A stretch of DNA of 39,157 nt from positions 1 through 39,157 of the forward strand of contig NZ_JACUTS010000015.1 of assembly GCF_014859695.1 (NCBI RefSeq), written 5' to 3'. The stretch is from Sulfurimonas sp. GTDB lineage: Bacteria; Campylobacterota; Campylobacteria; Campylobacterales; Sulfurimonadaceae. Every line of letters begins with the position of its first letter. Positions within the stretch are counted from its first letter, which is position 1. The notes below the pieces were generated by a model that saw nothing but the letters and a program-made list of their open reading frames with translations, was not told the DNA's origin and searched no databases. This document shows positions 14,896 through 39,088 of the stretch, piece by piece. A program made the translations under genes and the position numbers.

Positions 14896-16158
14896 ATGCT
14901 AGAGAGAGTCTCGCTTTTTACCTCAAAGCGAGACTCTCTACACTTTGTCTTACTCTCTTTTTTTATTCTTCTCGTCTCGCTTCTTCTAGAGTACAAAAAT
15001 TACCAAGAGTTTATAGTTTTTGACTCAGCTCTTGTGGATGCAACCGTTTTAAAACAGTACACCAAAACTAAGAGCAACAGAACATATCAAGTGCTAAAAC
15101 TAAAAAGTTCTGAGGGTCTTGTTTTTTATACAACAGCCAAAAAATCGCTTCAAGAGATTAAAAACAAAGAGATTTCTCTTGAAATATGGCCCAAAGATTT
15201 AACCTTTTACACATACCTTACAACATTTTACGGACCGAGTAAAATCATAAACATAAACGAAGGGAAGAGCGCAAAACAGAACCTAAACGCCTATATTTTA
15301 GCCTCACATAAAGAGAAGGAGGTTGCAAATATCTACCAAGCTCTCTATAGCGCAACTCCCCTAGATTACAGACTCCAAAGCGCTTTTTCAACTCTGGGAG
15401 TCTCGCATCTTCTAGCCATTAGCGGTTTTCATCTTGGAGTTCTCAGCGCACTTTTGTTCTTTTTGTTTCGTCCGCTTTACGCTTTTATGCAAAATAGATT
15501 TTTTCCATACAGAAATGCAAAAACCGATCTCTTCCTAGCTGTTGGATTACTGCTTTTTGCCTATACGCTCTTTTTGGATTCGCCGCCATCGCTTATCCGC
15601 GCTTTTGGGATGCTGGTTGTCGGTTTTGTACTTTATGACAGAGGCATTAAAATAGTCTCCATGCAGACTCTGTTTTTAACTATCTTGCTTCTCTTATCTC
15701 TCTTTCCAAGGCTCTTCTTCTCCCTTGGTTTTTGGCTCTCCTCAAGCGGAGTTTTTTACATATTTCTATTTTTAATCTACTTTAAAAACCTGAGCAAAAT
15801 ATGGCAATTTTTACTTCTGCCCATCTGGGTCTATCTCTTGATGCTTCCATTCTCTTTGGCGATATTTGAAAATTTTAGCATCTACCATCCGCTCTCAATT
15901 CTTTGGACGTCGCTTTTTAGCATCTTTTATCCGCTAAGCATATTTCTACATCTCTTAGGAGTGGGAAATCTTTTTGACCCTGCTCTTCTTTGGCTTCTAA
16001 ATCTCGGCAAAGAGGGAGTTTTGGTAAGCTTAAATCAATATCTCTTTTTCTTCTATATCCTGCTGAGTCTCTGGGCAATCTTTAACAGGAGTGCCGTTGT
16101 CGTTATGCTTATCTTTTCCGGCTCTATTTTCATATACGCGATTTATCATGTAGCATAA
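14896..16158 (+). CDS. comEC: ComEC/Rec2-type competence membrane protein
   Basis: Inner-membrane channel candidate for uptake of single-stranded DNA during transformation. The 420-residue protein has an N-terminal helix, a soluble segment of the DUF4131 type (about residues 40-120), and then a block of membrane helices starting at the signature GVSHLLAISGFHLGVL. The C-terminal metallo-beta-lactamase domain of long ComEC proteins is absent, as in many Campylobacterota. It starts four bases after dnaB. Codons about 3-15 contain a perfect 15-bp inverted repeat. Its last 129 bp overlap the convergent YihY-family gene. Confidence 0.88.
   Translation: MLERVSLFTSKRDSLHFVLLSFFILLVSLLLEYKNYQEFIVFDSALVDATVLKQYTKTKSNRTYQVLKLKSSEGLVFYTTAKKSLQEIKNKEISLEIWPKDLTFYTYLTTFYGPSKIININEGKSAKQNLNAYILASHKEKEVANIYQALYSATPLDYRLQSAFSTLGVSHLLAISGFHLGVLSALLFFLFRPLYAFMQNRFFPYRNAKTDLFLAVGLLLFAYTLFLDSPPSLIRAFGMLVVGFVLYDRGIKIVSMQTLFLTILLLLSLFPRLFFSLGFWLSSSGVFYIFLFLIYFKNLSKIWQFLLLPIWVYLLMLPFSLAIFENFSIYHPLSILWTSLFSIFYPLSIFLHLLGVGNLFDPALLWLLNLGKEGVLVSLNQYLFFFYILLSLWAIFNRSAVVVMLIFSGSIFIYAIYHVA
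14904..14940 (+). promoter_or_regulatory. Strong hairpin just after the comEC start codon
   Basis: A perfect 15-bp inverted repeat (14904-14918 with 14926-14940), loop of seven bases, begins five bases after the comEC ATG. In the mRNA it would place a very stable stem where the initiating ribosome sits, so it could reduce comEC translation or protect the dnaB mRNA end. It is not followed by a U tract. Confidence 0.55.
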
Positions 16159-30736: not shown

Positions 30737-31034
30737 CATCAGTTATTTAGAATAAATTATAAAAGAAGTCTAATGATTATTATGTCAAACTTCGCGTATG
30801 AATATACTTAAAGTAGTCATAATTGTATAAATTCTTTTTCAAAGTGAAAGACTTCACTAATCCCCCTATTATAGGGCTTTAATAACTATATTTATAAATT
30901 ATTTGAAATTGATAAATTAATGTTTTGGCACTATTTACCCTCATCTGATGCTATCTAATGGGTCAAAAAGGGGTTGAATTTGATTTTTTACTGCTATACT
31001 TTTTTAATTAAATCATGAAAGGTTTCTAACTGTA

Positions 31035-32261
31035 ATGAAAGAAGAAGTGAAAAGTTATGCTGGCATAAGAACAAAAATCATGAAAGACGGAACTAAAAAC
31101 ATAATGGTTCGATTAAGACATGACGGAACTAAATATCATGAAATGAATTATACTAAATTATTTGAGTGTGAAACAGAAGAAGACGCATACAAAGAAACAA
31201 TTATTGTAAAAAGAAGAATTGACAATGGAGAAACTGACCCTTTTGGAAAAAAGAAGTCTGTTATCTTAAATGATATTTGGGAAAAATATAGTACAGAAAA
31301 ATTAGAAGATGACACATGGAAAAAATCTAGTTATACAACTTATACAACTAATTATAACAAACGCATAAGAAATTCTATTGGTTGGAAACAAGTTCATTTA
31401 ATAACATATAATAATATAGATAGTATTGTAAAATCAATGAAAGGTCTAGGAAAATCTAGCAAAAGTTTTATTAAATTGATATTGCTACCAGTTTTTGAAG
31501 AGTGTAGGAAAAATAAACTTATCAAAGAGAATATTATTCTTGATTTGAAATTAAAAAAGAGGAAGAAAGAAGAGAACAGAAAAATTAGTGATATAAGTCA
31601 TGACGAGCCTCTTGATATAGTTAGAAAACTTTATAATACTATTCCTAAATATGAAAACATACATAAAAAAGATACTACTAATGAAGTTAGAGCTATATTT
31701 TATTTATTGCTTTTGACAGCTCATAGACTTCAAGAAATGATGGATTTAAAACAAGAACATATAATTCTTAAAAAAGATTTAATTATAACAACAGAGGATA
31801 TCACTAAGACAAGAGAAGATTATCATTTTCCACTTCCTCCAGAAGTGAAAGATTATTTAACTAACAATGCAGATAATGAAGGAAGATTTTTCCCTAATAT
31901 GATACAAAAAACTTTATTAAATAGGTGGAAACAATTAGTTCAACTTGCAGATGTTGGATTGAAGAATGGAAAAACTTTAACTATTCATGACACAAGAAGA
32001 TTGATGTTATATGTAATGATTCATGATTGTGAGATTGATGTAGTAATTGCAGATGCTTGTTTAAATCATAAAGTTCAAGGAACAATAAAAAATTATATTG
32101 ATATACCATATCCTATTATTGAAAAGTCTTTCACTAAATTTTGGAAAATAGTTAGAAACGATAAAGACCAAGAAGAAGAAGAGGAATTCACTTTAAACGA
32201 TATTCCTCAAGACGTAATTGAAATGTATAAAAAAATGAAACAATCAAAGGTATTACAATGA
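31035..32261 (+). CDS. Tyrosine recombinase (integrase) of the mobile element
   Basis: A 408-residue phage-type integrase that would catalyse site-specific integration and excision. The N-terminal half has an arm/core-binding layout (SAM-like helices about residues 90-175). The catalytic set can be placed: Arg231 (LTAHRLQEMMDL), Lys258 (DITKTREDYHFPLP), His318 and Arg321 (IHDTRRLM), His345 (CLNHKVQG) and Tyr354 (NYIDIPY). The C-terminal tail FTLNDIPQDVIEM reappears in decayed form at 34113. The base composition is clearly more AT-rich than in the core genes. The left flank has no tRNA gene, so the target is unknown. Confidence 0.88.
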   Translation: MKEEVKSYAGIRTKIMKDGTKNIMVRLRHDGTKYHEMNYTKLFECETEEDAYKETIIVKRRIDNGETDPFGKKKSVILNDIWEKYSTEKLEDDTWKKSSYTTYTTNYNKRIRNSIGWKQVHLITYNNIDSIVKSMKGLGKSSKSFIKLILLPVFEECRKNKLIKENIILDLKLKKRKKEENRKISDISHDEPLDIVRKLYNTIPKYENIHKKDTTNEVRAIFYLLLLTAHRLQEMMDLKQEHIILKKDLIITTEDITKTREDYHFPLPPEVKDYLTNNADNEGRFFPNMIQKTLLNRWKQLVQLADVGLKNGKTLTIHDTRRLMLYVMIHDCEIDVVIADACLNHKVQGTIKNYIDIPYPIIEKSFTKFWKIVRNDKDQEEEEEFTLNDIPQDVIEMYKKMKQSKVLQ

Positions 32262-32351
32262 GGCTTGAATTTTTTTTATTTCAATTTGACATATTACTTG
32301 GCAAAGGATTTATAGACTGCTATAATTCACAAAAAAATAGGTTCTTACTTG

Positions 32352-33245
32352 ATGAAATTAAATAAAAAATATAAATTCATAGATTTATTTGCTGGAATAG
32401 GTGGCTTTCATATAGGAATGAGCAATCAAGGGGCACAGTGTGTATTTGTATCAGAGATTGATAATCATGCCAGAGCAACATATAAAGAAAATTTTTATAA
32501 AGAAGTTCCTGAAATATTTGATAATGACTTATTTAATAATGATATCACAGAGATAGACCACAGTACGATACCAGACTTTGATATTTTATGCGGAGGTTTT
32601 CCTTGCCAGCCATTTAGCCAAGCTGGTTATAAAAAAGGATTTGATGATGATAGAGGAAATCTTTTTTTCCATATAGCTAATATTATTGATTTGAAACGAC
32701 CAAAAGCATTTTTTCTAGAAAATGTTAGACATTTGTTGAAACACGATGATGGTAAAACATTCGATACAATTAAAAATATTATAGAAAAGGAACTTGGGTA
32801 TTCTATATATTTCAAAATAGTCAAAGCTTCAGACTTTGGTCTCCCTCAACACAGAGCAAGAATATTTATCGTAGGTTTTAAAAATGACACACTACAATCA
32901 TTTAAATTTCCAGAACCAATACCTCTTAAAATGACTATGAGTGATATATGGGATGCAGAGTGTAGTAAAAAAGTAGGATATACGTTAAGAGTTGGAGGTC
33001 GTGGTTCTTCAATAAACGACAGAAGAAATTGGGATAGTTATTTAGTAAATGGAGAAGTAAAAAGAATAAGTTCTGTTCAAGGTAAAAAAATGCAAGGTTT
33101 CCCTGATGATTTTGTATTCCCAGTTTCTGAAACCCAAGCAATGAAACAACTTGGAAATAGTGTTGCTATTCCAGCAATTGAGGCAACGGCGGAGAGTATC
33201 ATTAAGTATTTGGAAGAACTTGAAAAGACTTCTCCTTCTCACTAG
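32352..33245 (+). CDS. Type II DNA cytosine-5 methyltransferase
   Basis: Modifies cytosine C5 within a specific site and protects the host from its partner nuclease. From ATG 32352 the product is 297 residues. Motif I is FIDLFAGIGGFHIG, motif IV the catalytic GGFPCQPFSQAGY, motif VI FFLENVRH, motif VIII QHRARIFIVGF, and motif X KQLGNSVAIPAI. The short target region contains TLRVGGRGSSINDRRNWDSY, a type seen in several small m5C enzymes; I cannot deduce the site. An in-frame TTG immediately upstream (32349) is possible. It is convergent with the putative endonuclease gene, with a 41-bp gap. Confidence 0.93.
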   Translation: MKLNKKYKFIDLFAGIGGFHIGMSNQGAQCVFVSEIDNHARATYKENFYKEVPEIFDNDLFNNDITEIDHSTIPDFDILCGGFPCQPFSQAGYKKGFDDDRGNLFFHIANIIDLKRPKAFFLENVRHLLKHDDGKTFDTIKNIIEKELGYSIYFKIVKASDFGLPQHRARIFIVGFKNDTLQSFKFPEPIPLKMTMSDIWDAECSKKVGYTLRVGGRGSSINDRRNWDSYLVNGEVKRISSVQGKKMQGFPDDFVFPVSETQAMKQLGNSVAIPAIEATAESIIKYLEELEKTSPSH

Positions 33246-33286: not shown

Positions 33287-34063
33287 TTAGCCTCGAATGT
33301 GAAGTGCTCCCCTATAATGTCCGTCAATAAACCTTGTCCATTTTTTAATTGACTTGTCTTCTTCAGTAGTAGGATTATCATTATAGTTCTTGGGCATACC
33401 TTTTTTACTTCTGATACTAACAACTGTTTTATCAATGATACTTTCTGCAACCTCATTTGGTAATAAGTTTTTCCATGTTGCAAAATCAGTTGGATTATCA
33501 AATTCCCATAAACTGTCTGCTTGAATTTTACTATCAGAACTTCCAGTGCCCTTAAATAAAAAATATGCTAGTAATGGTACCATTGTAATATTCTTTATCG
33601 ACTTAAAAGGACTTGTGTCATGACTCATTTTAATATCTTCTTGAATAATTTTATTTAATCGTTTGTTCCAATAATCATCAATAGCATTATCTAAGGGTTC
33701 TATGTCAAGCTTTATTCTATCAAAAACTTTTTTAATACCAATTCTATTTGTATGATTGATAAGGGCAGGTAAAGCACCTCTTTTCGATTTTAAAGACACA
33801 TTGATATTGTTTATAGATACGTCAGCTTTTATTATACTTGGTGCTTTGTCTATTTTCAATAAACTACAATTTTTTTGAAGTTCAGTAATACCCATATTAC
33901 ATATATCTAATAGTGAATAGTTATGCGATGGATACTCAATATAATCCATTGTTTTTAGATTGTAAAATCCAACTTTCTCGATATTGTGTAATTTGTTATC
34001 TCTCCAATAAATCAAACTAAGTTTCGCTTTTAGTTCGTCAATTTCACCTTTATTTATCGCCAT
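33287..34063 (-). CDS. Putative type II restriction endonuclease
   Basis: A 258-residue protein with no family I can name for certain. Its place next to a convergent C5 methyltransferase, and the stretch KADVSINNINVSLKSKRGA followed by LPALINHTNRIG, suggest a PD-(D/E)xK-type nuclease. In this reading Asp is the first acidic residue and SLK supplies the xK. Similar SxK-RGA-PALxNHT patterns occur in uncharacterised restriction enzymes. The start ATG 34063 has AGGA upstream, and TATACT further up may be a -10 box. A different restriction-linked role remains possible. Confidence 0.65.
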   Translation of the reverse strand: MAINKGEIDELKAKLSLIYWRDNKLHNIEKVGFYNLKTMDYIEYPSHNYSLLDICNMGITELQKNCSLLKIDKAPSIIKADVSINNINVSLKSKRGALPALINHTNRIGIKKVFDRIKLDIEPLDNAIDDYWNKRLNKIIQEDIKMSHDTSPFKSIKNITMVPLLAYFLFKGTGSSDSKIQADSLWEFDNPTDFATWKNLLPNEVAESIIDKTVVSIRSKKGMPKNYNDNPTTEEDKSIKKWTRFIDGHYRGALHIRG

Positions 34064-34106
34064 TGATTATCCTAAAATATAATTTAACAAAGTATAGCAA
34101 TAAATT

Positions 34107-34253
34107 ATTCACTTTACAAATCTAAACGATATTCCTGCTGAAGTTGTTGAAATGGATAAAGAAAAGAAGAAGGAAATAGTAAGGGCAGAGATAAAATCTC
34201 TTGAAAATAAAGATTTTGCCCCCACCCTTAAAAGGTTTTTTTTCTATAGGTAA
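34107..34253 (+). pseudogene. Decayed 3' end of a second recombinase gene
   Basis: The plus strand reads HFTNLNDIPAEVVEMDKEKK in one frame and stays open to TAA at 34251-34253. It aligns with the C-terminus of the intact recombinase (FTLNDIPQDVIEMYKK), and the DNA shares ACTTTA and AACGATATTCCT. No start or catalytic part remains; the frame is closed by TAA at 34101-34103. The stop codon lies within the first iteron. Confidence 0.6.
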
Positions 34254-34337
34254 AAAGGTATAAAACTATAGGTAAAAAGGTATTTTTATTTTATCAACTA
34301 TAGGTAAAAAGGTATAAAACTATAGGTAAAAAGGTAT
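34244..34337 (+). repeat. Four iterons of a plasmid-type replication origin
   Basis: Four identical 18-bp direct repeats, CTATAGGTAAAAAGGTAT, start at 34244, 34266, 34298 and 34320. Spacing is 22, 32 and 22 bp, close to two and three helical turns, so all face one side of the DNA. This is typical of Rep_3-family iteron origins, and a Rep_3-type gene lies 430 bp downstream. Perfect identity argues for recent function. Confidence 0.9.
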
Positions 34338-34401
34338 TTTTTTACTTTTTGAAATCTTCTACATTACCCTAAAAACCTTTGTTGTGAGGAATCACTAAAA
34401 A

Positions 34402-34446
34402 TCTCTATTATATATTATATTATAGAGAAGAGAGTCTCTATTATAT
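34402..34446. other. AT-rich candidate unwinding region of the origin
   Basis: Just beyond the iterons lies TCTCTATTATAT twice (34402-34413 and 34435-34446). The first is part of an inverted repeat with ATAGAGA at 34422-34428. The stretch is nearly pure A/T. It is positioned as the duplex unwinding element of an iteron origin. No convincing DnaA box is seen; TTATTCACT at 34105-34113 is the closest. Confidence 0.45.
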
Positions 34447-34500
34447 CTCTACGCAGTCATTTTTGAAAATGCTTGTTTTTATAAAAACTAAGTATACCTC

Positions 34501-34522
34501 ATAATTTTCTGAAGAAAATTAT
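34501..34522. other. Hairpin in the origin region
   Basis: A perfect 9-bp stem ATAATTTTC / GAAAATTAT with a four-base loop. The stretch 34447-34690 otherwise holds no gene that I can support. It may be a single-strand initiation or termination structure. Confidence 0.35.
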
Positions 34523-34636
34523 TCCACCCTCCGATTATTTTTCTTTTCGAAACAAGTTTCTCATTGAAAAATATATCGTTCCCCCTATTTATATTTTTAA
34601 TGCCCTGCAGCAAAACTTATATCTATTCATATTTTT

Positions 34637-34656
34637 TCCACCTCTAAAGAGGTGGA
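34637..34656. terminator. Hairpin upstream of rep, possible terminator
   Basis: A perfect 9-bp stem TCCACCTCT / AGAGGTGGA with a two-base loop, followed on the plus strand by TGATTCCTTTT. It is GC-richer than its surroundings. It could stop read-through into rep, or belong to an antisense RNA control of the kind found in plasmids. The tail is a weak U tract. Confidence 0.4.
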
Positions 34657-34690
34657 TGATTCCTTTTAATCTAGGAGTGATTTTCTTATA

Positions 34691-34741
34691 TTTTTTTAAA
34701 AATACCTTTTTTTTTGACTTAGTATAAAAAAGACTTAAAAT
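34691..34741 (+). promoter_or_regulatory. rep promoter with inverted half-iteron operator
   Basis: An inverted half-iteron ATACCTTTTT (34702-34711) runs into -35 TTGACT (34714-34719); after 16 bases comes -10 TAAAAT (34736-34741). The half site is the reverse complement of the AAAAAGGTAT part of the iterons. Rep proteins of this family commonly repress their own promoter through such inverted copies. Nearly the same 28 bases recur after rep. Confidence 0.75.
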
Positions 34742-34768
34742 AGTTTATATAACAAATAAGGATTTAAA

Positions 34769-35794
34769 ATGAATATTTCAAACGGAGATTATGCGAAAAG
34801 CAATAAACTAATAAATAGAATGGATTATATGGACGAAAAAAACAATAAGGTATCAATTACATTAAAAGAAGAAAAACTATTGGAATACTTCTTCTATTCA
34901 CTTCAAAAAAGACATATTATTCGTAAAGAGATAAAAAAAGAAGATTTTTTTTGGACTAGTAAAGGAGTTTTTCATTTTAGTTTAAATGAAGAAGAGAATA
35001 GAACTGAACATCTTTTTTTAAAGACCGAAGAAGGAAATGTTAGTTTCGTTGATTTTGAAATGGATGTTAGACATTTAAAAAAGTTTATGAGAGTTGAAGA
35101 AGGAAATTATATTCAAGACCTTGAAGAAGTCTTAGGAAAATTATTTACTAAAAAAGTAGTTTATATTAGAACTACAAAAGACAGCATTGAAAATAGAAAT
35201 GTTTCTCCTCTTAAAAACTTTGTTATTAAAAAAATGAATGTAGAGAAAAAATATAGATGTAATGTTTCTATAGATGTTGAATTTTTATATTTAGCAATTT
35301 TTCAAAATGGTCAATTTACTCCTCTAAACATAAATATTGTTAAAAATCTTCGTTCTAAATATTCATTAAGAATATATCAAGAAATAGAAAAAGCATTGAG
35401 TTTGAGACACGAAAATTTAACTTTGAGAAGCTTAAAATCCATGAATGATTTTTTTGGAACTACTCATATTATAAAATCTAAAATGGATCAAATTATTCTA
35501 AGAACTAAACAAGAGCTGTTATTAAATAAAATGTATTCATTCAAATATGAAGTTTATCAAAATGATAGTAAAGAATGGGTATTCAAAATCACAGATATTA
35601 TAAAATTATTTGAAAATGACATTATATTTGATTATATATACAATTATTTAGATTTTAGACTATTGACACCAGAGATGCAGGAAGTGTTCAAATTAGAGTA
35701 TTCAAATGACTATTTGGAAATGATTGATATTGATTCGAAAGAGATTAAAACTGCTACTTCAAGAACGACACATATTCAAAGAAAGCAAAACTAA
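34769..35794 (+). CDS. Rep_3/RepB-family plasmid replication initiator
   Basis: A 341-residue initiator that should bind the iterons and open the origin. It has two winged-helix domains: WH1 around residues 20-150 and WH2 from about 170, with the family's recognisable NLRSKYSLRIYQEIEKAL and SLKSMNDFFG helices. AAGG lies before the ATG at 34769. The upstream promoter carries inverted half-iterons, so autoregulation is likely. An intact initiator in a chromosomally inserted element is notable. The host factor interface is unknown. Confidence 0.85.
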   Translation: MNISNGDYAKSNKLINRMDYMDEKNNKVSITLKEEKLLEYFFYSLQKRHIIRKEIKKEDFFWTSKGVFHFSLNEEENRTEHLFLKTEEGNVSFVDFEMDVRHLKKFMRVEEGNYIQDLEEVLGKLFTKKVVYIRTTKDSIENRNVSPLKNFVIKKMNVEKKYRCNVSIDVEFLYLAIFQNGQFTPLNINIVKNLRSKYSLRIYQEIEKALSLRHENLTLRSLKSMNDFFGTTHIIKSKMDQIILRTKQELLLNKMYSFKYEVYQNDSKEWVFKITDIIKLFENDIIFDYIYNYLDFRLLTPEMQEVFKLEYSNDYLEMIDIDSKEIKTATSRTTHIQRKQN

Positions 35795-35846
35795 TTTTTT
35801 TAAAAATACCTTTTTTTTTTGACAAGGTATTTTTATTTTATAAAAT
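35795..35846 (+). promoter_or_regulatory. Second Rep-type promoter after rep, driving the small-gene operon
   Basis: A repeat of the rep promoter starts directly after the rep stop codon. It has the inverted half-iteron ATACCTTTTT (35806-35815), -35 TTGACA (35819-35824), 16 bases, and -10 TAAAAT (35841-35846). The spacer adds a direct half site AAGGTAT (35824-35830), so ATACCTT and AAGGTAT form an inverted repeat over the -35 box. Confidence 0.75.
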
Positions 35847-35874
35847 ATATGAATATGACAATAAAGGATTTAAA

Positions 35875-36168
35875 GTGAAAAATGAAAAGTTAAAAGATTT
35901 TAAAAATATGTTGATTAAAAGATTAGAAAATAGAACAAAAATATTAAATGAAAAAACAAGTGAATTAAACGAATTAAAAAAAGATAATGAATATATCAAA
36001 GGTTATTTAACTTGTCAAATAAACACATTAAAAAGTGATTTAGACACTATAAAAAATGACATTGAAATTATTAAATTATTAGAGAAACAAAATCAAATTC
36101 AAGTAAGAGAAATGAACGGGAATTTAAGAATTTTAGATTGTAAAGAATTTAAAATAGAGGTTTTATAA
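35875..36168 (+). CDS. Small coiled-coil protein
   Basis: A 97-residue, highly charged protein predicted to be a long helix or coiled coil (RLENRTKILNEKTSELNELK, then SDLDTIKNDIEIIKLLEKQ) with a short beta-like C-terminus. It starts GTG 35875 with AAGGA at good spacing and is the first gene behind the Rep-type promoter. Its stop overlaps the ATG of the next small gene by one base. The role is unknown; a regulatory, partition or accessory function would fit the context but nothing proves it. Confidence 0.6.
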   Translation: MKNEKLKDFKNMLIKRLENRTKILNEKTSELNELKKDNEYIKGYLTCQINTLKSDLDTIKNDIEIIKLLEKQNQIQVREMNGNLRILDCKEFKIEVL

Positions 36169-36308
36169 TGATTGAAAATTTTTTAATAAATTATTTATTT
36201 TGGATTGAAAATAACTTCTATTTATTTATGTTTATAAATTTAGTTTCGTTTATTGGTTGTGTTATTTTTTTTAAAGAGTTCTTGAAGAAAAGAAGAAAAA
36301 ATGATTGA
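36168..36308 (+). CDS. Tiny membrane protein of the mobile element
   Basis: A 46-residue product with a hydrophobic centre (NNFYLFMFINLVSFIGCVIF) and a strongly basic C-terminus (KEFLKKRRKND), thus one membrane helix with its tail in the cytoplasm. It starts at ATG 36168, overlapping the previous stop (TAATG) by one base. Its end overlaps the next ATG by 8 bp (ATGATTGA). Coupling on both sides makes it convincing despite its size. I know no relative; small phage or plasmid membrane proteins look like this. Confidence 0.6.
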   Translation: MIENFLINYLFWIENNFYLFMFINLVSFIGCVIFFKEFLKKRRKND

Positions 36309-36621: not shown

Positions 36622-36798
36622 AAGAGAAAGAGAGTATCAAGCAGGAAAAAGGTATTACTCGGTTGCCCTACGGGAAACACGATAATACAAGGGGGAACTA
36701 CTTTTGACAAAGGGTCTTTTATGGCAAAAAAACTATTAGTTATTTTTCTTTTGATTTATTTTTTATAATTTATAAGAATAAAAATTAAAAGGATTAAA
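36622..36798 (+). other. Candidate transfer origin (oriT) and promoter region for mobilization genes
   Basis: A 177-bp gene-free gap just before the mobilization genes. It contains a half-iteron AAAAAGGTAT (36646-36655), then an imperfect hairpin GTTGCCC-TAC-GGGAAAC (36662-36678), and GC-rich bases unlike the surroundings. A nick site next to a hairpin, close to the accessory and relaxase genes, is the usual oriT layout. A possible -10 TATAAT lies near 36765. No known nick sequence can be matched with certainty. Confidence 0.4.
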
Positions 36799-37263
36799 AT
36801 GAAATATGATACTGAAAGAAAGAGATTTACTTTTAAGACAGAAATAGCGGAGATATTAGAGAGAGAAGCAAAGAAAGTTTTAAAGACTGAAAGCGAATTC
36901 ATAGAGGATTTAATTTATAAAAATTCAGTCGAGAGAGATAATCGCTTATCAAATAAAATAGCAAGAGATACAGAAAATTTAATGTTATTAAACATATTAA
37001 ATAAAGAAGATTTAAGTGAATTATCTATTGAAGAGATATATAAAAAATGTAATGTTATAAACAATGACAAGAAAATCTATCTTGCTGAAAAAAGAAGCAA
37101 AGAAGTAGGATTTTATAAAGAAGTTAAAAAAATTGTAAATGCTGAAAACTTTGAAGAACTTATTGATAACTTGAAAAAAAGTGACAAAGATTATTTAAAA
37201 CAATTAAGATTATTTGGTGCTGTATTTAAAGAATTAAATCTATTGGTGAAAAAGTATGAGTAA
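36799..37263 (+). CDS. Mobilization accessory protein, MobC-like, possible ribbon-helix-helix
   Basis: A 154-residue protein whose start (RKRFTFKTEIAEILEREAKK) resembles a ribbon-helix-helix DNA-binding fold with a beta strand followed by helices. The remainder is helical and charged. Its place directly before the relaxase, with an 8-bp overlap (ATGAGTAA), is the usual location of relaxosome accessory proteins that bind oriT and help nicking. AAAGGA lies six bases before ATG 36799. The name rests mainly on position; sequence similarity to MobC was not established. Confidence 0.55.
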   Translation: MKYDTERKRFTFKTEIAEILEREAKKVLKTESEFIEDLIYKNSVERDNRLSNKIARDTENLMLLNILNKEDLSELSIEEIYKKCNVINNDKKIYLAEKRSKEVGFYKEVKKIVNAENFEELIDNLKKSDKDYLKQLRLFGAVFKELNLLVKKYE

Positions 37264-39088
37264 GAATTTTAAAAATGGTTTTAAAGCTCGTGAGAGTTTA
37301 AATCTTAAAAATGTTAAAACTGTATTTAAAGACATGCAGAAATCTTACGAGGGAGCAAATAAGACAAGACTTGTTAAATATATTCAAAAAGAAGATAATG
37401 TTTTTCAATCTGATAAATCTATTGAGAAAATGAATTTAAAGCACTTTATAATTTCTCCAATTGAACCAGAGCTGTATAAGAAACTTACAAAAGAGCAAAA
37501 GAAACAAGTTCAAGAAGTAACAAAGGAATGGACACATAAAACATTTAATAAATGGGGTTATATCGCGGGGATAGAAGATAATGAAAACAAAAGCGGTTTA
37601 GGTGTTAAAGAAGGGTTTCATGTTCACGCAGGAGTAAATGATAAATATTCAATAAAAGGAAGCATCGACTTATTAAGATTGAGAGAGGGGTTAGTTAGGG
37701 ATTTATCTGAAAAATTACCTATTTCGATAAGAAAAAAACTTGGTTTGAAGAACAAAAAAGAAAGACAACAAGAAAAAAATGAAAGTAATTCTAAAAAACA
37801 AAAGTTCAATCATTTAAATAAAGTTAAAAATTCTGCTGAATATCAAAAAGAGATGTCAACTATTAAAGATATGACTGGTCAAATATCTAATATTTTTAAA
37901 GTCATGAATTTTCATAATGAAAAAAAAGAAGAGCTATCTGAAATACATAAATTGGATAAACACCATATTCTGAAAAAACAAGAACCTCTAAAAAATGAAA
38001 TTGAACATTATAATAAATCAATAAAAAAAAGAGATGATGACATTGAATATATTGAGAAAAATATTTCTCAAAAAGATGAGCGGATAGGACAAGTTGAAAG
38101 TTATTACAATAATGAAATCAAACATTTAAAGTATTTCTTAGAAGACGAAGAAAGTAGTTTAAATTTTTATGCTGATGGGCAACATTCATTTTTTAAGAAG
38201 CTTATGAAAGATAAAAAAAAGGATGGTCAAATTTCAACTGCTGAATTTTTAGGACAAGTTGCTAGAAATAAATCTTATTGGAAAATGATAAAAGACGATA
38301 AGAGAAAAGAGCATGAAAATTATGTTAAATACAAACAAGAGCAAATGAAATCTGAAATAAAAGGTATTGAAAAGGATATCAAATTATTTGAATCTGATAA
38401 AAATTTATTGCGTAGATTAAAAGATTCAGATAATAAATCATTGAATATATCTCGTAAAGAGTATAAATCAACTAATGAAGAAATGACTAATCATTTAGAT
38501 ATTTTTAATGAGAATATAAATGAAATTACTGAAAAATTAAAAGTTTTTCAACAGGCTAAAACTGAAATGAGTGAAAAGAAAAAACAATCTATTAATAAAA
38601 AGAAAGATATGATTGAACAAGCTTTAAATTATGAAGATACACAATATCATAAGAAAAACCACATTGTGGACGGTTTTGCAGACGATATATCAGAAAAAGC
38701 AAAATTAAAAATTAGAACTGCTAGTGGAGAACATAAAGATGGTTTTCATTTTAATGAAACAAATCAAGAAATTCATATCCCTTATAGAAAAAATAATCAA
38801 GAAATTAGAGGAACTGTAATATTTGCTAATCTTGTTCGTTTAGTTAAAGAACAAACTAATTTATCAAAAGCTGAAATTATTGATATGTATGACGAAAAAA
38901 CATTATTAAGACAACTAAAAGAAGTGATGAAAGAAGATAGAAAAATCAACAAAGTATCTATTCCAAACCTACGAACATTAGAAGAAGCACTTGCTAAATG
39001 TTATAACATAGAGATAGAACAAGAGAACACCTATGAATATATTACTAAATCAGAAGAAGAGGAAGATTATTCGTATATGGGTATGTAA
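37256..39088 (+). CDS. MOBP-like relaxase
   Basis: A 610-residue protein that should nick oriT and lead the strand during conjugation. The first 150 residues resemble MOBP relaxases such as RP4 TraI: candidate motif I tyrosine Tyr42 in RLVKYIQKED, His63 in LKHFIISP, and the histidine motif at 122-124 (GFHVHAGVN). The extra upstream His/Asp of motif III seen in RP4 is missing. Residues about 200-480 are a long, very charged coiled coil. A compact C-terminal domain follows (KLKIRTASGEHKDGFHF, RGTVIFANLVRLV). No primase or helicase is apparent. The size and coiled coil are unusual for the family. Confidence 0.68.
   Translation: MSKNFKNGFKARESLNLKNVKTVFKDMQKSYEGANKTRLVKYIQKEDNVFQSDKSIEKMNLKHFIISPIEPELYKKLTKEQKKQVQEVTKEWTHKTFNKWGYIAGIEDNENKSGLGVKEGFHVHAGVNDKYSIKGSIDLLRLREGLVRDLSEKLPISIRKKLGLKNKKERQQEKNESNSKKQKFNHLNKVKNSAEYQKEMSTIKDMTGQISNIFKVMNFHNEKKEELSEIHKLDKHHILKKQEPLKNEIEHYNKSIKKRDDDIEYIEKNISQKDERIGQVESYYNNEIKHLKYFLEDEESSLNFYADGQHSFFKKLMKDKKKDGQISTAEFLGQVARNKSYWKMIKDDKRKEHENYVKYKQEQMKSEIKGIEKDIKLFESDKNLLRRLKDSDNKSLNISRKEYKSTNEEMTNHLDIFNENINEITEKLKVFQQAKTEMSEKKKQSINKKKDMIEQALNYEDTQYHKKNHIVDGFADDISEKAKLKIRTASGEHKDGFHFNETNQEIHIPYRKNNQEIRGTVIFANLVRLVKEQTNLSKAEIIDMYDEKTLLRQLKEVMKEDRKINKVSIPNLRTLEEALAKCYNIEIEQENTYEYITKSEEEEDYSYMGM

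Follow-up and report, generated by a model that had tools for sequence, protein, structure and literature searches.

A promoter-operator repeated on both sides of rep in a Sulfurimonas mobilizable element, and its predicted control by Rep

The element and its genes

The window, i.e., the whole stretch of DNA analysed here (39,157 nucleotides), constitutes an entire contig (C126) of a 2.37-Mb Sulfurimonas genome; its nearest named relative, judged by Rep, is Sulfurimonas sp. KA11. At 31 kb, the GC content falls from ~0.40 to ~0.25, and a tyrosine integrase gene begins there. From this point to the contig end, the order is integrase, cytosine methylase, a reverse-strand gene, iterons and rep; three small genes come next, then the oriT-like sequence and the genes for a mobC-like protein and a putative relaxase. 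The following features were assigned, all on the plus strand:

30801..30816, plus strand: attL core ATGAATATACTTAAAG, matching the first codons of the gene for arginyl-tRNA-protein transferase at the KA11 element's right end
31035..32261, plus strand: tyrosine integrase (PF00589, phrog_216)
34244..34341, plus strand: iterons, four copies of CTATAGGTAAAAAGGTAT, starting at 34244, 34266, 34298 and 34320
34691..34741, plus strand: predicted operator/promoter A, inverted half-iteron AAAAATACCTT followed by TTGACT-N16-TAAAAT
34769..35794, plus strand: rep, Rep_3 initiator of 341 aa (PF01051)
35795..35846, plus strand: predicted operator/promoter B, perfect 11-bp half-iteron dyad overlapping TTGACA-N16-TAAAAT
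35875..36168, plus strand: small gene 1, 97 aa, GTG start, RBS AAAGGA, hydrophilic, coiled-coil-like
36168..36308, plus strand: small gene 2, 46 aa, one hydrophobic segment; its ATG overlaps the gene 1 stop codon
36301..36621, plus strand: small gene 3, 106 aa, membrane-protein-like, overlapping gene 2; homologue in the G149 element
36640..36720, plus strand: probable oriT, AGCAGGAAAAAGGT...GGGGGAACTAC, assigned by eye; also upstream of mobC in KA11 and G149
36799..37263, plus strand: gene for a mobC-like accessory protein, 64% identical to the G149 protein
37256..39088, plus strand: putative relaxase with an HxH motif (FHVHAG)

The sequence points to an integrative mobilizable element with a Rep_3-type replicon. 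Its integrase belongs to PF00589, and att repeats are present in the related elements of KA11 and of a further genome, G149; the window contig stops before attR. The KA11 element is complete, being flanked by direct repeats of ATGAATATACTTAAAGAA (K13387 / K20906), the right one of which supplies the opening codons of a gene for arginyl-tRNA-protein transferase, with Pfam matches to ATE_N and ATE_C. The G149 element, ~8.5 kb in length, lies at tRNA-Arg(gcg) and has a different integrase and att site. The cytosine methylase gene and the reverse-strand gene beside it (32349-33245 and 33287-34063), the latter without family matches, are missing from the KA11 element and are possibly restriction-modification cargo.

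Rep matched PF01051 with an E-value of 1.8e-9, exceeding the curated cut-off, and its G149 homologue also matched this family. The AlphaFold model of Rep had a pLDDT of 36, too poor for use in fold comparison. Relatives of Rep were sought in plasmid records, phage records and viral contigs, and relatives of the relaxase in plasmid records, and none were found. The iterons are 18-nt direct repeats with a spacing of 22/32/22, and a search for DnaA boxes near them returned one box with one mismatch, at 34105. The iteron 18-mer also matched five viral contigs, once each, and these single copies were taken as chance matches. Between the iterons and the rep promoter, a noncoding stretch (34495-34615), reading CCTCATAATTTTC...GAAAATTATTC.ACCCTCCGATTATTT.TCTTTTC...ATATATCGTTCC.CCTATT, is far better conserved with G149 than its flanks. 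An Rfam search around rep, with this stretch included, gave no match; it could be a primer or assembly site or a small RNA.

The three small genes overlap, TAATG joining genes 1 and 2 and gene 3 beginning within gene 2, and thus form one operon. Strongly hydrophobic segments are found in the products of genes 2 and 3 and are absent from that of gene 1. A terminator-like site between this operon and the mobilization genes was sought in the window and none was found, so that read-through from B into the mob genes is possible there. In G149, a reverse-strand gene resembling those of chemotaxis receptors lies between the small operon and the mob genes and thus precludes read-through.

In the mobilization region, the mobC-mobA pair is conserved and accompanied by the oriT-like sequence, which has AGCAGGAAAAGGT...GGRGGAACTAC in common between the window, KA11 and G149. 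The putative relaxase gave no relaxase family match in Pfam, NCBIfam or PHROGs, and its relatives were confined to a few Campylobacterota genomes. GGGGGAAC, as in the probable oriT, is also present on the reverse strand near 34585. The sequence AAAAGGTATT near 36648 resembled a further half-iteron and was rejected, as it is part of the conserved oriT-like sequence and reads AAAAGGTGCG in G149.

The promoter-operator copies flanking rep

The initial annotation had described one 28/29-bp block starting before rep and again right after its stop codon, each time leading into TTGACW-N16-TAAAAT. Both the blocks and the promoters, which are near-consensus, were confirmed at these places. Block A reads T7-A5-TACC-T9-GAC (34691-34718) and leads into TTGACT(34714)-N16-TAAAAT(34741); block B reads T7-A5-TACC-T10-GAC (35795-35823), its first base directly following the rep stop codon TAA (35792-35794), and leads into TTGACA(35819)-N16-TAAAAT(35846). 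The repeat of 28-29 bp stands as described, but the similarity is longer, running on through the leader and the RBS to the start codon with 77/96 identical positions.

An inverted half-iteron had been assigned to each copy, and the second copy had been called palindromic. The left arm is indeed present in both, and the full dyad is found in B only, where AAAAATACCTT (35802-35812) and AAGGTATTTTT (35824-35834) are perfect 11-bp arms separated by 11 nt. In A, the left arm alone is intact and the right arm is lost to degeneration (TTAGTAT). Against their own iteron, A and B reached at best 14/14 in a 14-nt comparison (p 0.007 and 0.003, respectively), whereas against the G149 iteron they reached 11/14, the null level.

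Chance as the origin of the A/B likeness is excluded, its probability being negligible. Local alignment of the sequences upstream and downstream of rep gave z = 10 against dinucleotide shuffles; the 16-mer core AAAAATACCTTTTTTT has exactly two copies in 2.37 Mb, both beside rep (reversed control, 0); and the five occurrences of AAGGTATTTTT or its complement in 39 kb are accounted for by two iterons, A (once) and B (twice).

The mobC promoter (window 36728-36799 and its equivalents in KA11 and G149) was revealed to be a third, degenerate relative of A and B (z about 10 in G149). The mobC promoters share the -10 box and leader with A and B and are without operator arms. This implies that a shared leader alone does not bring the operator, and that Rep control, as predicted below, probably stops at the small operon and does not reach mobC.

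Related elements and a survey of Rep_3 loci

Between the window and KA11, the segment comprising the iterons, A, rep and B is conserved almost base for base (97.75% over 34221-35900, BLAST), whereas elsewhere the integrases are 72% and the relaxase/mob regions 70% identical. The near-identity begins at the T-run preceding iteron 1 and ends sharply at 35850, just past the -10 box of B and inside the leader of gene 1. Promoter B, therefore, travels together with rep rather than with the gene under its control. The genes downstream of B in KA11 differ from those in the window, and the KA11 operon is followed by a remnant resembling a Mutator-family transposase (below the Pfam cut-off).

The G149 Rep is 58% identical to that of the window, and its four iterons read CTATAGTATAAAAGGATA where the window has CTATAGGTAAAAAGGTAT. 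An 84-bp segment of promoter, leader and RBS is present on both sides of rep as an almost perfect repeat (z = 41): the sequence before rep, TTATCTTTTTTATTTGACAAGGTTATTTTTTTTCTTATAATAGTTATATAAC plus RBS, is found again behind it, differing by one indel and a few changes close to the start codon. Searched with up to two mismatches, the 29-mer was found at the two rep-flanking places only in that genome. The G149 promoter, TTGACA-N16-TATAAT, is full consensus. The match of the G149 operators to the iterons of that element was weak (12/14, p 0.08-0.12), and none of the palindrome tests on the G149 operators was significant, the dyad being weak.

A stretch of ~110 nt before G149 rep recurs, inverted and nearly identical, upstream of mobC (M 15005-15113; L017/L018, G149:C1 about 1620005-1620113 and before 1623960). 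In the window, no second copy of such a stretch was noticed.

In a four-way alignment of the A and B copies from the window and G149, 11 columns were concerted (separating the elements, with both copies agreeing), one was of the paralogue type (separating A from B across elements) and none was crossed. The 11 concerted columns indicate concerted evolution of the A and B copies, whether through conversion, recurrent duplication or selection imposed by a common reader.

The duplication is kept in all three related elements found (window, KA11 and G149). With the rep units of the window and KA11 being 98% identical, these represent two independent lineages only. An RBS and a start codon follow B at normal spacing in all three. 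The genes under B vary between elements: gene 3 was the sole small gene of the window with a detectable homologue in G149 (29% identity, E 1e-7), genes 1 and 2 not being recognisably homologous between elements. The comparison of relatives proposed in the initial annotation was run and showed both operators to be kept and to have changed together in a relative whose Rep is 58% identical. A relative keeping the small genes without the second site was not seen among those found.

For the survey, 93 Rep_3 loci were assembled from the class, of which 76, including the three of this clade, were scorable. The three clade members ranked first; of the remaining loci, all but the next two scored z <= 3.4, and a duplicated promoter was present in 0/73 of the other Campylobacterota Rep_3 loci.

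The two high-scoring loci outside the clade were inspected by hand and rejected. L072 is a 7.5-kb contig with the iteron array on both sides of rep, probably due to a circular overlap, and has no duplicated promoter. L101 (917-936 and 2110-2214), on a Rep_3 plasmid (G108), carries iterons after rep and, within the rep promoter, sites resembling them, again without a duplicated promoter; its arrangement is ordinary, yet it is the closest formal analogue in the survey. In a more distantly related element (G456), which has the mob genes in common, a related MobA (36%) is combined with another Rep_3 protein, and there is neither a small operon nor a second promoter.

Predicted Rep control, alternatives and known systems

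The favoured reading is that Rep would repress both promoters; it is suggested by half-iterons matching the element's own iterons at the -35 boxes, by the dimer model of RepE and by the co-change of the two copies. The RepE dimer of plasmid F binds inverted repeats at the repE promoter (PMC13028717). In the proposed mechanism, one Rep-operated promoter would be used twice, for rep itself (autorepression) and, directly after rep, for the small operon. Binding of Rep, probably dimeric like RepE of F, to the inverted half-iterons flanking the -35 box would keep RNA polymerase off A and B alike, so that both would be held low at steady state. Repression of both would imply induction on entry into a Rep-free cell, where A and B would fire together until Rep accumulates. 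Induction on excision, which had also been proposed, was not supported, as an excising element does not lose the resident Rep pool; titration of Rep by extra origin copies is possible. On this basis, we consider it likely that rep and the operon behind it, with one gene for a soluble and two for membrane-protein-like products, make up a Rep regulon of two promoters.

A further-reaching proposal, that the initiator is a dedicated two-promoter regulator which, on arrival in a new host, couples establishment of the replicon to a surge of small membrane proteins (e.g., for entry exclusion or establishment functions), with recombination keeping the operators matched as Rep specificity drifts, is tentative and less likely than not.

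The arrangement might instead be a recombination scar, left when a promoter-rep circle underwent homologous recombination with a resident promoter-operon or when a tandem rep lost its second copy, with B driving the operon under no meaningful Rep control. The direct repeats extend over leader and RBS, the rep unit clearly travels as one block whose border is at promoter B, and the G149 copies are nearly identical, as if from a recent event. However, the window copies have diverged to 80% while the operator block has remained exact, the better dyad is found in B, and the arrangement is present in two lineages with 58% Rep identity. Such an event accounts for the origin of B but not for the retained half-iterons, and as the full explanation, we regard it as rather unlikely.

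Slightly less probable still is that site B serves mainly in copy-number control like incC of F, its half-iterons titrating Rep or pairing with the origin (handcuffing) and its promoter being incidental. Five iterons directly downstream of F repE lower copy number (PMC13028717), and site B, with its two half-iterons, occupies the corresponding position. Yet these are inverted half-sites around a -35 box, within a near-consensus promoter followed by leader, RBS and start codon; B copies promoter A rather than the iterons, and G149 repeats the entire promoter plus leader.

That another regulator, such as the product of small gene 1 or some host protein, reads the shared block, the iteron likeness being an AT-rich by-product, is very improbable: the sequence is very AT-rich and the G149 operator-iteron match alone is not significant, but all five copies of AAGGTATTTTT in 39 kb of window lie at iterons or A/B, and B is retained across elements whose gene 1 differs.

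If control of both promoters by Rep holds true, copy control would be tied to an accessory programme with no need for a dedicated regulator, and a handle on the role of the small genes would be gained. It would also provide a clean case of operator-iteron co-evolution, because both copies travel with the initiator and change along with it.

Rep_3 initiators are classical autorepressors. In the open-access text searched, an initiator controlling a second operon via a copied promoter was not found. The new aspect is probably the second copy of a Rep-operated promoter right behind rep, driving another operon, as a variant of iteron-plasmid autoregulation. Iteron-containing integrative mobilizable elements with Rep_3 are already known (PMC5704250). 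Precedents exist for induction on entry into a Rep-free cell: zygotic induction is documented for RP4 (PMC7314908), and establishment of R1 and pMV158 needs relief of rep repression (PMC5717011).

The closest parallels are found in several known systems. Common to F and the present element are an initiator of the Rep_3 family, iterons ahead of rep and, as predictions here, inverted half-sites resembling iterons at the rep promoter (with the left one alone intact in A) and further Rep sites directly after rep (PMC13028717); the sites behind F repE are direct iterons serving copy control, whereas here they would form a second promoter-operator before an operon. SGI1 and other Rep_3-type elements are likewise integrated, mobilizable and equipped with their own iteron replicon (PMC5704250, PMC7826253), but in SGI1, the helper plasmid activator AcaCD turns rep on and oriV is located behind repA, in contrast to the predicted control by Rep itself at two promoters. 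In IncP plasmids (RK2/RP4), KorA/KorB act as one repressor set over replication and other operons, which fire together in a new host (PMC7314908); unlike Rep, they are dedicated regulators and not the initiator. In RA3 (IncU), the DR1/DR2 repeats flank repA-repB (PMC9455977), but these are long tandem repeat arrays and not duplicated promoters.
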